The notes beneath the pieces are model-generated. The model searched no databases, had not been told where the DNA came from, and was given only the letters and a program-made list of their open reading frames with translations. Position numbers and translations under genes: made by a program. This document shows positions 9,712 through 14,659 of a DNA stretch of 64,000 nucleotides, one piece after another; within the stretch, counting starts at the first letter, position 1, and the number at the start of each line of letters is the position of its first letter. Where the stretch lies: contig RPGP01000001.1 of NCBI GenBank assembly GCA_004193555.1, positions 586,156 to 650,155 on the forward strand. Reading direction: 5' to 3'. This DNA comes from Desulfobacteraceae bacterium Eth-SRB1. GTDB taxonomy: Bacteria; Desulfobacterota; Desulfobacteria; Desulfobacterales; ETH-SRB1.

Positions 9712-11955
9712 TTATTTTGAACTCATAGTAAATGAACTATCCCAATCTTTTGGAGGGGGATTGATTTTATATTCATCACACCTGATAAGCATGGTTTTAC
9801 TCGGACTGTCGTCAGGCGTCAGCTCCAATGCTGCTTTAAAAAAACTCCCGGCTTTTTCCCAATCCTGATTTCTGTATGCATGAAGGCCATCGGTGTAATT
9901 ATTTAGCGTCTTACTCATGCGTTCATCAATATCTTTTGGATAACCTAAAAGCTGATAAATTGTTACCGGTTCTTTTTTCCCCACAACATTTATTGAATCA
10001 ATTTCCCTTGCCATTATGTTATTGCCGGCGGCCATGAAAGTTGTTTCACTAATCAGCGTGTAAATTCCGTACATTTTGTTAACACCTTCCAGCCTTGCAG
10101 CAGTATTAACCGTATCACCCATCATTGTATAATCCATACGTGTTTTTGATCCCATATTGCCCACAACAGCCGGGCCTGTGCAAAGACCGATCCGCATCTT
10201 CAGCTCGGGCTTTTCTTCAGCTTTCCACTTTATCCTGAGTTCTGACAGCCTTTTTTGCATGTCAATGCAAGCCATGCATGCTATTTCTTCCTGATTCTCA
10301 AGCTCGTTAGGAGCTCCAAAAAAAGCAATGATGGCGTCGCCTTCAAATTTATCCACAGTTCCTTTATAGTTTAAAATTATATCTGTCATTTCTGTTAAAA
10401 ATTCGTTTAACAGCTCAACCAGCTCCTCTGGAGTCAGCCCTTCGGAAATACTTGTAAAACCCTGAATATCTGAAAAAAATGCTGTAATTACACGTTCTTC
10501 ACCACCTAACACAAGCTTTTCAGGAGACTCGATAAGCTGTTTGACAACCGTTGGAGCAAGATAAGTAGAAAAAGCATTTTTTATAAATCTCTTCTGCCTT
10601 GACTCTGTAAAATATTTGTATGCGGTTATACTGATATATACTAAAATTATTACAGTCAGAGGATAAACAAGGTTTAGGATTAAGCCTTTTTGAGAGAATA
10701 GATACTGGCATAGAAATATATGGCCGACAAACAATAAGAAAGTAGCTGTAGCGCCTGATATGCCGCCTGCTTTAGGGAGCACAAGCCCGAGGATAAGTCC
10801 GGCAACAATTATTGCCATGATGTCAAAAATAGCGGCCCAGGCCGGTTGATACATGAAATCCTTTGAAAGGATACTGTCTGCGACATTTGCATGGATTTCA
10901 ACACCTGGAAAAACAGTTCCAAATGGAGTGACCCTTAAATCATATATTCCGACAGCCGTGGCGCCCACTATTACAATCTTGTCTTTCACAAGAGTATCGG
11001 CTATATTGTTATTTAATATATCTGTAACCGGTATATGAGGAAAGGTTTTTCCCGCTCCTCTGTAGTTTATCAAAATTCGTCCCAGCTCATCCGTTGGCAC
11101 CGCTAATTTCCCGATCTGTAGCTTTTCCACGCCATAGTCACCAATATTCATTGAAATCGGGCTTTCTAAATAAGCGCTGACCGCAATCAGCGACAAAGGA
11201 GCATACAGCATCTCCTTACACTTAATAACGCCGGGCATCCATCGCACAACCCCGTCTTTGTCCGGCAACATATTGAAAAATCCACAATAACCGGTTGCGT
11301 TTGAAATAATTTCTATATTAGATTGAGGTGTTTTGGCTTCAATAAGCGGTATATTCTGAGCAGTTCCTGAAGCATAACGTATAAATTTATACTTGGACCC
11401 TGAAATATTATTCTTGTGAATGCTGATTTGGTTTTCGCTGATATGACTTGATTCAGTGGAATCTGTGTGGAAAAAATATCCCAGCACTATCCTGGCTGTG
11501 GAATTTCTTATAGCATCGGCAAGGACTTGATCATTGTTTGCATGCTTTTTTAGATTTTTCAGGTAGTTGTCAATTTCCTTTTTTCGAATATCGTGATCGT
11601 GAATTGTGCGTTGTATCTCATTTATGGTGTTTACAATCTTTTTATCATCAGGCTCCAAAAATCCGATATCAAATGCTATTACCCTGGCGCCGGCTTTTGA
11701 CAGTTTTGTAACAAGATTTGCGATTTTTGACCTTGGCCATACCCATTTCCCCTCTTTACTAATGCTTTTTTCATCAATGACTGCCAGAACCACATCAGGG
11801 CCTGGGGGAATTTGTCCTCTGGCTTCAAATCTTAAATCAATGGTTTTTAATTCCATTAGATCAAGAAAGGATATCCCTTGCAAATAGGCAAGGATTCCGA
11901 CAAATATGGCAAACACAGAAATGAGAAGAGGATAAAGTAAAGCGATTTTTTTCAT
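9712..11955 (-). CDS. CHASE2-domain membrane adenylate/guanylate cyclase
   Basis: A class III nucleotide cyclase with an extracytoplasmic CHASE2 sensor. The chosen start (MKKIALLYPLL) begins a membrane segment; a TTG 28 codons upstream at 12039 is an alternative with no better ribosome-binding site. Order: one N-terminal membrane helix, CHASE2 domain (about residues 30-330), three C-terminal membrane helices, cyclase domain (about 485-680), and a short TPR-like tail. Metal-binding aspartates are seen in FFSDIQGF (Asp496) and KFEGDAI (Asp540). The purine-recognition and catalytic region MDYTMMGDTVNTAARLEG is intact and of adenylate cyclase type. It is divergent from the Mla-type operon. Confidence 0.88.
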   Translation of the reverse strand: MKKIALLYPLLISVFAIFVGILAYLQGISFLDLMELKTIDLRFEARGQIPPGPDVVLAVIDEKSISKEGKWVWPRSKIANLVTKLSKAGARVIAFDIGFLEPDDKKIVNTINEIQRTIHDHDIRKKEIDNYLKNLKKHANNDQVLADAIRNSTARIVLGYFFHTDSTESSHISENQISIHKNNISGSKYKFIRYASGTAQNIPLIEAKTPQSNIEIISNATGYCGFFNMLPDKDGVVRWMPGVIKCKEMLYAPLSLIAVSAYLESPISMNIGDYGVEKLQIGKLAVPTDELGRILINYRGAGKTFPHIPVTDILNNNIADTLVKDKIVIVGATAVGIYDLRVTPFGTVFPGVEIHANVADSILSKDFMYQPAWAAIFDIMAIIVAGLILGLVLPKAGGISGATATFLLFVGHIFLCQYLFSQKGLILNLVYPLTVIILVYISITAYKYFTESRQKRFIKNAFSTYLAPTVVKQLIESPEKLVLGGEERVITAFFSDIQGFTSISEGLTPEELVELLNEFLTEMTDIILNYKGTVDKFEGDAIIAFFGAPNELENQEEIACMACIDMQKRLSELRIKWKAEEKPELKMRIGLCTGPAVVGNMGSKTRMDYTMMGDTVNTAARLEGVNKMYGIYTLISETTFMAAGNNIMAREIDSINVVGKKEPVTIYQLLGYPKDIDERMSKTLNNYTDGLHAYRNQDWEKAGSFFKAALELTPDDSPSKTMLIRCDEYKINPPPKDWDSSFTMSSK

Positions 11956-12085
11956 AATGGGAACCGTATAGGATAAGACATATTCAATTTTGTTGACCTG
12001 TACGATTTTTATATTGTAAGATTTGCGACAAGTCAACAACAGACAACCAATATGACCTCATCAATACCTTATAATATTAGCTGAA

Positions 12086-12862
12086 ATGTATCAAATAGCT
12101 GGTTACATAGGCAGAAAAACCTTAAAATCTGTCAGCCATATTCTGGACCTGTTTGCCTTTAGTTATAGAATATTCGAACTGATCTTTCAAAGGCCCAAAG
12201 AAGGTAGAGTCCTTGTCAGAAGAGTTATTCTGGAACAGATATATTTTACGGCTGTTCAAGCCCTTCCCCTGCTTATTCCGATTGCTCTTATTGTGGGAAG
12301 CATGCTTATTATACAATTTGCCAGGATCTCAAGTCAATACGACATAGGCACAACAATGGTGCTGTTAATTGTGAGAGAATTAGGCCCGGGAATTACAGCT
12401 CTTTTGGTGATATTGAGATCAGCTACTTCAGTAACTATAGAAATCGGCTACATGAAGGTTTTACATGAAATAGATACGATTGAAATGGCAGGGCTTGATC
12501 CCATACGAATAATTTGTCTGCCGAGATTGATAGGAATCACATCCGCCATACTTTGTCTTTTCATCGTTTTTGACCTGGTGTCTATTATCGGAGGTTATGG
12601 AGTAGTGTGGGTCTTTACACATATTCATTTAGGCGACTTTCTTGGACAGATTGCAAAAGCCGTAACTCCGAGAGATATTACTGTAGGAATTGTAAAAGCC
12701 CTGTGTTTTGGAATTATTATTACCGTAACATGCCTCTATCACGGATTCAGCATAAAAAAAAATATTACAGGCCTGCCCGCAGCAGCATCAAAAGCAGCCG
12801 TTGAGTGCTTTTTTTACTGTCTGTTGATAAATGTTGTTATATCGACAATATTTTACATGTAA
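12086..12862 (+). CDS. mlaE: Mla-type ABC transporter permease
   Basis: A 258-residue integral membrane protein of the MlaE family, which moves phospholipids between outer and inner membranes with MCE proteins. It has five or six hydrophobic helices and the family signature VRELGPGITALLVILRSATSVTIEIGYM split over about residues 90-125. It begins an operon with an ATPase-like protein and an MCE protein. It is divergent from the CHASE2 cyclase, with a gap of about 130 bases between the chosen starts. The following 93-base gap contains a copy of the AACACC repeat and a T-rich stretch. Confidence 0.85.
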   Translation: MYQIAGYIGRKTLKSVSHILDLFAFSYRIFELIFQRPKEGRVLVRRVILEQIYFTAVQALPLLIPIALIVGSMLIIQFARISSQYDIGTTMVLLIVRELGPGITALLVILRSATSVTIEIGYMKVLHEIDTIEMAGLDPIRIICLPRLIGITSAILCLFIVFDLVSIIGGYGVVWVFTHIHLGDFLGQIAKAVTPRDITVGIVKALCFGIIITVTCLYHGFSIKKNITGLPAAASKAAVECFFYCLLINVVISTIFYM

Positions 12863-12955: not shown

Positions 12956-13630
12956 ATGAAATTAATCGAGCTTTCAGATTATACGCTTTCCCCAATAGGT
13001 CAAGGAAACGGCCTTAACCGATTCTATTTTGACCTGTCAAAAGGTGATGCATGCTCCGTTCAGGCCGATTCGCCGGATGACGCACACCTGCTTCTAAAGG
13101 CTATTGCTATGCTTGAGTATCCAACAGACGGCGCTTATCGATTTATGGGAGAAAAAATTAATTTTTCAGACCATAGAAATCTTCTTTCATATAAGAAAAA
13201 AATAGGTTATGTTACTATAGATGCATCGATGATCAGCAATATGAGTATCAGGGAAAATCTTTTATTAATGCGATACTATTTTGAAAATTCACTTTCCCTT
13301 GATATAAAGGATAATGTCAAAAATTTATGCATTCTTTTCGATATTTATGATAAGTTAGATGTTCGTCCAGGCGCTCTCAGGCCGACAGAGTTGCGAAGCG
13401 CCATTACAATCAGAGAGCTTACCAAGTCGCCCGACATACTGCTGTTTGAGCGGCCTGAAAATTTCGTCAGGCATACAAAATTTGATCTCTTTGTTAAGCT
13501 CCTTAAAGAAATGTTGTTAGCTGGACTCCCTCTTGTTTTTATTTCTTATGACGCACATTTTATTAAAGAATTTTCAAACAGACAGATACTTATTTCAAAC
13601 GGAAATTTAACAACGGTTAAAGAGGGGTAA
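12956..13630 (+). CDS. catalytically degenerate ABC ATPase-like subunit (MlaF position)
   Basis: A 224-residue protein with the overall outline of an ABC ATPase, located where MlaF normally lies between permease and MCE genes. Every catalytic motif is altered. The P-loop is replaced by ADSPDDAHL (residues 37-45), with no Gly-Lys-Ser. The Q-loop glutamine is absent (YVTIDAS). The signature LSGGQ is replaced by LRPTE (141-145). Walker B reads ILLFERPEN (161-169) in place of hhhhDEPT. The H-loop region is ISYDAHF (196-202). The frame is intact and the fold-like pattern (MSIRENLLL, LTKSPDILL) is kept, so it is probably expressed as a non-hydrolysing partner. A separately encoded true ATPase would be needed for transport. 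Confidence 0.75.
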   Translation: MKLIELSDYTLSPIGQGNGLNRFYFDLSKGDACSVQADSPDDAHLLLKAIAMLEYPTDGAYRFMGEKINFSDHRNLLSYKKKIGYVTIDASMISNMSIRENLLLMRYYFENSLSLDIKDNVKNLCILFDIYDKLDVRPGALRPTELRSAITIRELTKSPDILLFERPENFVRHTKFDLFVKLLKEMLLAGLPLVFISYDAHFIKEFSNRQILISNGNLTTVKEG

Positions 13631-13660: not shown

Positions 13661-14659
13661 ATGGACTTAAATTTCAGCAAAAAAGAGAAAACAGTTGGAA
13701 CATTTATAATCTGCATCATAGTTATACTGCTGACTACAGTGGTGATTATCGGCAGGGGCAAGGACTGGTTTAAAACATATATTACATATTATACTACTTT
13801 TGATGAAAGCTATAATCTTCAAGACAATGCCTCTGTAAAACTATTCAAGGCTAATATTGGAAAAGTAAAGAAAATTACCCTTGACGGGAATAAGGTAAAA
13901 GTCAAGCTGGCTATTTTAGAAGAATACTCTTCCAGGATTAGAACCGATTCTATTGCACTTGTTGAAAGCCCGACATTTATTGGATCTGAATATGTTTCCA
14001 TACAGCCTGGAAGCCCTGATGCGCCACTTATTCCTGAAGGCGGAGAGATACAATCCGAGGCGAAAAAAAAGATATCTGATTTCATAGCGGAATTTCAGGT
14101 AGAAAAAACAGCTAAAATGGTTGTACAGGCTGCTCAGGACATATCAGAAATAACAAAAATAATGCGCGACCCCAACGGCCCTTTTTTTACAGCCGTTGAT
14201 AATATCAACAAAACAATTTCTCATCTCGAAGCGGTTGCCAGAGATATAAAAGCCGGCAAAGGCACTGTTGGAAGCCTGTTGAAATCAAGAACGCTTTTAG
14301 AAACCATCCAGAACAATATTGATAAAGTGGGAGCCATACTTGAAAACATTGCCGATGCCACTGTAAAGGCCCCTGAAACAATGGACAATGTCCGGGACAA
14401 CCTTGCTAAAATCAAGAAAATCGGAAATGAAGTATTGGATAGCATTTCAAGCATTAAAAAGATCCTGAAACAAGTTGAAGAGGGTATCACTGATATACCA
14501 AAAGTTACTAAATCTACTAAACGAGGTGTTCAAGAAATCAGGGATGGAGTAGAAAATATAGACAAGGTCGTTGAGTCTCTTCAGAAAAATTTTTTGATAA
14601 AACCAAATCTTCCGCCCCAGCCAAAAGGCAAAAATATTGATGCTGGTTTGCGGCAATAA
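13661..14659 (+). CDS. mlaD: MCE-domain (MlaD-like) lipid-binding protein
   Basis: A 332-residue periplasmic protein anchored by one N-terminal membrane helix (about residues 11-31). An MCE domain follows (about 38-120), with the typical GKVKKITLDGNKVKVKL and PTFIGSEYVSIQPG segments. A long helical C-terminal region (about 140-320) with heptad-like spacing probably forms the hexameric tube or barrel extension seen in MCE proteins. It is the last gene of the mlaE/ATPase-like/mlaD set, 30 bases after the ATPase-like gene. Confidence 0.87.
   Translation: MDLNFSKKEKTVGTFIICIIVILLTTVVIIGRGKDWFKTYITYYTTFDESYNLQDNASVKLFKANIGKVKKITLDGNKVKVKLAILEEYSSRIRTDSIALVESPTFIGSEYVSIQPGSPDAPLIPEGGEIQSEAKKKISDFIAEFQVEKTAKMVVQAAQDISEITKIMRDPNGPFFTAVDNINKTISHLEAVARDIKAGKGTVGSLLKSRTLLETIQNNIDKVGAILENIADATVKAPETMDNVRDNLAKIKKIGNEVLDSISSIKKILKQVEEGITDIPKVTKSTKRGVQEIRDGVENIDKVVESLQKNFLIKPNLPPQPKGKNIDAGLRQ

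Follow-up and report, generated by a model that had tools for sequence, protein, structure and literature searches.

Pseudo-MlaF, encoded at the mlaF position of a three-gene Mla-type unit in Desulfobacteraceae bacterium Eth-SRB1, has the modelled fold of an ABC ATPase, has lost the catalytic residues of one, and is maintained by purifying selection in a fixed three-gene order. Across the phylum the same loss has proceeded stepwise, and there are relatives in which the gene itself is missing. The interpretation preferred here, with moderate confidence, is that pseudo-MlaF is catalytically dead and has a structural role, holding together the MlaE dimer of an MCE lipid conduit that is ATP-free.

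The three genes lie on one strand of the window, the 64,000 nucleotide stretch of DNA that was analysed. They encode a 258 aa MlaE-family permease of a distinct 'pseudo-ATPase' clade (12086-12862, +; PF02405, 1.6e-51), the 224 aa ABC-ATPase-like pseudo-MlaF (12956-13630, +), whose frame runs uninterrupted from the ATG at 12956 to the stop at 13630, and a 332 aa MlaD-like MCE protein (13661-14659, +; PF02470, 2e-15). Through PF02405 and PF02470 the locus has the gene content of an Mla transporter, an MlaE permease and an MCE protein. The latter comprises a transmembrane helix (residues 7-33), an MCE domain (residues 40-133, approximately) and a long helical C-terminal part. Its AlphaFold model (mean pLDDT 67.9) is confident for the transmembrane helix and MCE domain only; the helical part is modelled with low confidence, and the length of any bridge is therefore left unclaimed. 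Upstream of the trio, and divergent from it, is a CHASE2-adenylate/guanylate cyclase gene (9712-12039, -); a homologue is found upstream in 16 of the 85 loci with examined flanks, the window included, making it a recurrent rather than a constant neighbour.

The similarity of pseudo-MlaF to ABC ATPases is well above chance in profile, PDB-sequence and fold searches, establishing its ancestry. The best profile match was NCBIfam FtsE (residues 6-216, 1.2e-16), and PDB chain sequences were matched with E-values down to 3.6e-11; the Pfam ABC_tran match was sub-threshold, at 22.1 bits against a cut-off of 25. The AlphaFold model (pLDDT 94.2, pTM 0.90, 222 of 224 residues at 70 or above) is predicted to contain the RecA-like core and helical subdomain by which the ABC ATPase fold is recognised. 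Foldseek matched this model to FtsE, MetN, MacB and MlaF (2.7e-18 and weaker), and VIA-align gave a best Z of 24.2 over 221 residues, with MlaF (6xgz) at Z 22.8. A frame or annotation error was set aside, as the frame is open and copies exist in 13 of 17 family genomes, with relatives 55-89% identical. The insertion of another ABC family into the operon was likewise set aside, despite FtsE being the best profile: a former MlaF is favoured because of the gene's position, its permease partner and the graded relatives with MlaF-like motifs. No ATPase tree, in which branches would be long, stands behind this ancestry.

Alignment to the intact MlaFs of the same genome located the altered catalytic motifs. 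Walker A, GRSGGGKS in the intact proteins, is ADSPDDAH in pseudo-MlaF (former P-loop ADSPDDAHL, residues 37-45; 13064-13090, +), and the Q-loop FQD is TID (within GYVTIDASMI, residues 84-93; 13205-13234, +). The LSGGM signature is replaced by LRPTE (residues 141-145; 13376-13390, +), the Walker B/D-loop FDEPTTGLD by FERPENFVR (former motif ILLFERPEN, residues 161-169; 13436-13462, +), and the SHD of the H-loop by SYD, the histidine being now Tyr198 (13547-13549, +).

None of 12 key catalytic residues is kept in the window's protein, which fails on this count as an active ABC ATPase. Among 85 sequences from the order, 47 keep none, 25 one, ten two and three three. The Walker A Lys (0/84), each of the two signature Gly (0/85) and the catalytic Glu (0/85) are absent throughout; the Walker B Asp (18/85), Q-loop Gln (5/84) and H-loop His (5/85) are retained in a minority. 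Pseudo-MlaF is therefore an MlaF orthologue by position, as an ATPase-type gene inside an mlaE-mlaF-mlaD unit, and not one by catalytic competence with an LSGGM signature, neither Gly surviving in any of the 85. As a control, all 12 residues were present in each of 29 distinct canonical mlaF loci from genomes bearing a permease of the pseudo-ATPase clade (31 rows, with two loci represented twice); L295, a truncated canonical locus, was excluded, and further canonical loci of those genomes were not read. That pseudo-MlaF is catalytically dead is strongly supported, in the absence of biochemical data.

Conservation has been retained elsewhere in the protein and acquired at the dead sites. R153 and P167 are each found in 85/85 order sequences, and K80, Y85, N95 and N101, close to the Q-loop, are kept at 94-99% in the family. 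Relative to canonical MlaF, the biggest drop in conservation is at the signature (-0.44), with differences of +0.19 before the Q-loop and -0.02 after it. The replacement motifs, DSxDDAHLL at the P-loop and ERPEDF at the Walker B/D-loop, each have a conservation of 0.62, against a mean of 0.53. Permease-facing residues were inferred from general knowledge of ABC proteins, with no measurement.

Copies of pseudo-MlaF, 55-100% identical, are present in 13 of the 17 genomes of the organism's own family; the four genomes without one (G003, G005, G007 and G010) are 74-89% complete. A profile built from these 13 copies detected the gene, at E<=1e-20, in 85 of 291 genomes and 47 of 138 genera of the order, including 56 of the 173 good-quality genomes, with the other 206 genomes giving no match at this threshold. 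The family is consequently widespread, if patchy, in the order, and does not represent decay in a single strain: the matched frame is free of stops in 84 of 85 copies, the exception being G268, in which a TAA occurs close to the C-terminus. Gene order is similarly fixed across the order. The permease adjoins pseudo-MlaF in 79/85 loci and the MCE gene does so in 83/85, and the misses (six and two, respectively) all lie 2-671 bp from a contig end; all or part of the permease was located on another contig in G052, G063, G079 and G268. No constant partner was found among the genes neighbouring the trio in 73 loci, the commonest neighbour family being common to only 25 of them. A contig scan with two peptide patterns returned 30 loci, 20 of them titled Desulfobacteraceae, Desulfobacterales, Candidatus Desulfaltia or Deltaproteobacteria; the other ten, from Clostridium and bacilli, matched weakly (1e-9 to 2e-6, 21-25% identity) and are taken to be ordinary ATPases, their motifs being unread.

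Pseudo-MlaF is under purifying selection, with constraint weaker than that on its partners: median dN/dS within the own family was 0.24 (range 0.13-0.37), compared with 0.19 for the permease and 0.15 for the MCE protein (Nei-Gojobori, own script; 31 of 78 own-family pairs usable for all three genes). It also evolves faster than both and is the least conserved of the trio, with an order-wide median identity over 77 loci of 0.37, versus 0.535 and 0.477. Between the window and six family relatives (L005-L010), synonymous distances were 0.85-1.17 for the MCE gene and only 0.16-0.31 for the adjacent permease, as if the two might have had different histories.

A sequence-only reading of the locus had described an ABC-ATPase outline, in an open and uninterrupted frame between an mlaE-like permease and an mlaD-like MCE gene, with the P-loop, Q-loop, signature, Walker B and H-loop all altered. 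Each of these points held: the gene context and outline through PF02405, PF02470 and the modelled fold, the altered motifs through the alignment to intact MlaFs and the 12 missing residues, and the frame with its coordinates exact. The accompanying argument against simple decay is supported by the order-wide open frame (84/85), purifying selection and the confident ABC fold. Intact Walker motifs in relatives, which would have counted against this description, occur in none of the 85 order relatives; beyond the order, Walker A and Walker B survive in some relatives, which nevertheless lack the first signature Gly and the H-loop. A dN/dS of about 0.24 and a stop in only one of 85 copies (G268) do not give a picture of relaxed decay. 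The suggested structural or regulatory role is borne out to the extent that a functional, non-catalytic subunit is supported; the ABC fold is predicted confidently for the monomer, and its binding to MlaE is only inferred.

Outside the order, the loss of catalytic residues is graded. The partner permeases form a single clade apart from canonical MlaE (SH-aLRT 100; 64 versus 28 rows), in a tree obtained by quick search, with SH-aLRT support only, and rooted on canonical MlaE. A permease of this clade was found at 1e-48 in 48 of 395 genomes of the phylum, 43 of them outside the order; the pseudo-ATPase profile, searched at 1e-18, was no guide by itself, since it also picks up ordinary ATPases (353/395 genomes). 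The ATPase partners of 37 of these 43 were scored for motifs. In the remaining six, three (G386, G439 and G497) have no adjacent ATPase, the loci of G309 and G460 run into a contig end, and G378 is cut off. Families f104 and f111 keep 10 of 12 key residues, f84 and f92 between nine and seven, f89 six and f123 five, and f90, f132, f156 and f158 none or one. No MCE gene directly follows the pseudo-ATPase in f79 and f122. Of the 38 rows of the phylum census, among which L201 comes from the order, none has the first signature Gly and only one the H-loop His, even when Walker A is intact; nine retain the second signature Gly and seven the catalytic Glu. Parsimony on the permease tree gave one change for the signature GG, two for the H-loop, three for the P-loop GK and four for the Walker B DE, and an AU test rejected holding all P-loop-less rows together (p-AU 0.018). 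This test used a group picked after seeing the quick tree, and long branches can mislead. From the parsimony and the AU test it is deduced that the signature and H-loop were the earliest losses, with repeated loss of the P-loop following later. ATPase loss across the phylum has thus been stepwise, with Walker A persisting in some families, f92, f104 and f111 among them.

In E. coli MlaE, a coupling helix between TM2 and TM3 mediates contact to MlaF (PMC7790496). The corresponding region of the window's permease (EIGYMKVLHEIDTIEMAGLDPIRIICLPR, residues 119-147; 12440-12526, +) is the expected contact to the ATPase-like subunit, the actual contact residues being inferred. Among clade permeases outside the ATPase-less set, E128 is found in 55/56 and G136 and R147 in 56/56. 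In one locus of family f65 (L204), 26 bp separate the permease stop from the MCE start, with no ATPase gene between them; in a second f65 genome (L202) a 28-base run of N lies between the permease and MCE genes, which is merely consistent with absence, and clean absence within f65 is accordingly shown for one genome only. In the three genomes of f50 (L203, L205 and L206), the permease has neither an ATPase nor an MCE partner in the examined stretches. The coupling-helix region is scrambled in the permeases of both f65 and f50, and its retention elsewhere is consistent with docking of the pseudo-ATPase wherever its gene exists. By contrast, the coupling helix is kept in the orphan permeases of G497 and of two f98 genomes, with no adjacent ATPase. 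The best pseudo-MlaF profile matches in these eight genomes of f65, f50, f98 and G497 were 9.6e-21 to 7.5e-29, and no other pseudo-MlaF was found in them, all 16 loci read having an intact Walker A and signature.

Two further observations concern these loci. In L204 (354-3886), a lipid A-type acyltransferase and two beta-ketoacyl synthases are followed by the permease and MCE genes, neighbours that possibly hint at a lipid-synthesis context in f65. The orphan clade permeases at L252, L257 and L260 keep the coupling helix and have no ATPase or MCE gene directly adjacent; the gene after the permease in L252 and L257 is taken, by eye, to be fructose-1,6-bisphosphatase.

Under the conduit interpretation, the three genes would specify an Mla-derived lipid transporter composed of an MlaE permease dimer, an MCE ring with a helical extension and a dead ATPase subunit. 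Having kept the ABC fold, pseudo-MlaF would still bind the coupling helix of MlaE and serve as a structural clamp. With no ATP being hydrolysed, lipid would move down its gradient between the inner membrane and the MCE conduit, which may be passive or gated by something other than ATP. The oligomeric state, MlaE binding, stabilising role, ATP-free phospholipid transport and direction of that transport are all inferences, lacking both biochemistry and a model of the complex. An outward direction is suggested solely by the in vitro finding that, in E. coli Mla, ATP hydrolysis prevents spontaneous MlaD-to-MlaC transfer (PMC10212509). Nor does a dead ATPase automatically make a working clamp, since the E. 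coli MlaF Walker A and B mutants K47A and E170Q fail to complement (PMC7367683) and Walker B mutants of the mycobacterial ATPase MceG fail to stabilise Mce complexes (PMC9947336). The non-complementation by the MlaF mutants means that the pseudo-MlaF system must work differently or have another task. The rapid evolution of pseudo-MlaF relative to its partners, and the system's patchy distribution in the order, also weigh against the conduit.

The rival that survives best, and which remains possible, is that an intact MlaF encoded elsewhere energises the permease in the manner of MceG, with pseudo-MlaF acting as a regulatory or asymmetric partner. In its favour, intact MlaF is encoded at two other loci of the own genome, and MceG is shared between several Mce permeases in Mycobacterium (PMC9947336). 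At least one further MlaE is encoded by 57 of the 64 distinct order carriers scanned for this family, in which a trans-acting MlaF is possible, and this counts against the conduit. Against the rival, the other seven carriers (G008, G049, G188, G197, G201, G224 and G273), 90-97% complete and in the case of G197 on one contig, have no second MlaE. No MlaF-grade ATPase was detected in these seven either: their best MlaF-profile matches (9e-46 to 9e-58) are comparable to the third-best match in the own genome, whereas true MlaF scored 1.1e-96 to 1.1e-119 with the same profile in five control genomes. Three of these controls had loci in the profile; G009 (8e-117) and G021 (4e-116) did not. A trans-acting MlaF is therefore not general. 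Furthermore, neither composite site could be complete in a mixed dimer, because the pseudo subunit has neither Walker A nor signature. It remains possible that an ATPase from a different ABC family acts in trans. The sequence-only reading had offered two energy options, a separate MlaF or passive transport. A second intact mlaF is indeed present, at two loci, but the first option is weakened by the 7/64 carriers without an MlaF-grade ATPase; passive transport remains the better of the two, without having been shown.

A second rival, considered unlikely, is that hydrolysis was lost and the subunit senses a ligand, a nucleotide or other metabolite, at the remodelled site and gates the permease. 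The replaced P-loop and Walker B/D-loop do have a conservation of their own (0.62 each, against the mean of 0.53), but the Walker A Lys, the Walker B pair and the signature have all gone in the order, and divergent lineages carry differing replacement motifs. Least plausible of all, and very improbable, is a slowly decaying functionless relic on its way out, for which the lowest conservation of the three genes, the gene's absence from f50 and at least one f65 genome, and the G268 stop near the C-terminal end can be cited, and against which stand the 84/85 stop-free frames, the dN/dS of about 0.24, the invariant R153 and P167, the new motifs conserved at the dead P-loop and Walker B positions, and the confident ABC fold.

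A bolder extension of the conduit interpretation proposes that the motor died stepwise across the whole phylum, that the transporter is now an ATP-free conduit, probably feeding phospholipid outward alongside ordinary ATP-driven retrograde Mla, and that the dead motor was later discarded in some lineages; as a joint proposition this is judged less likely than not. Retrograde transport is favoured for Mla itself in a review (PMC10212509). The way in which phospholipids reach the outer membrane is disputed, as is the ability of Mla-type machines to run outward without ATP. A natural family in which the ATPase passes from nearly intact, through fully lost, to deleted opens this question of direction and ATP to direct test, and shows which components an ABC transporter still requires once its motor is dispensable. 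It also provides an ordered series of motif loss, with the signature and H-loop going first and the P-loop later, more than once.

The pseudo-MlaF system differs from each known system compared with it. E. coli MlaFEDB has the same gene types, with an MlaE-family permease, an MCE protein and an ABC fold (6xgz, Z 22.8), whereas the window's ATPase is without any catalytic motif and its genome without an MlaC match: the shuttle's PF05494 gave no matches in this 98% complete genome, the control set being positive in 2/14. Mycobacterial Mce1 and Mce4 similarly combine permease and MCE genes with no active ATPase in the operon, but their common MceG is active, while the window's operon holds a dead ATPase-like gene and 7/64 pseudo-MlaF carriers have no MlaF-grade candidate partner. 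LetAB and PqiABC are likewise MCE lipid transport systems without an ABC ATPase, although they use LetA/PqiA-type membrane proteins instead of an MlaE permease. Heterodimeric ABC transporters, such as TAP, TM287/288 and MsRv1273c/72c, work with degenerate nucleotide-binding motifs; one site stays active in these, whereas in pseudo-MlaF, the sole ATPase-like subunit of its operon, neither half of the site survives. The open-access literature searched, which leaves out most subscription papers and preprints, yielded no description of an inactive MlaF family. The minimal MlaEFD of the Veillonella type, with an elongated MlaD (PMC10665443), is also a three-gene mlaEFD unit; it differs in having a predicted complex similar to E. 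coli MlaDEF, and the relevant sections of that paper make no mention of an inactive MlaF. The own genome's L162 locus looks closer to the Veillonella type than the pseudo-MlaF locus does. This canonical mlaEFD locus (L162, 4969-6468) encodes a 499 aa MCE protein with a long C-terminal part, which, by analogy, is perhaps like the elongated MlaD of Veillonella.
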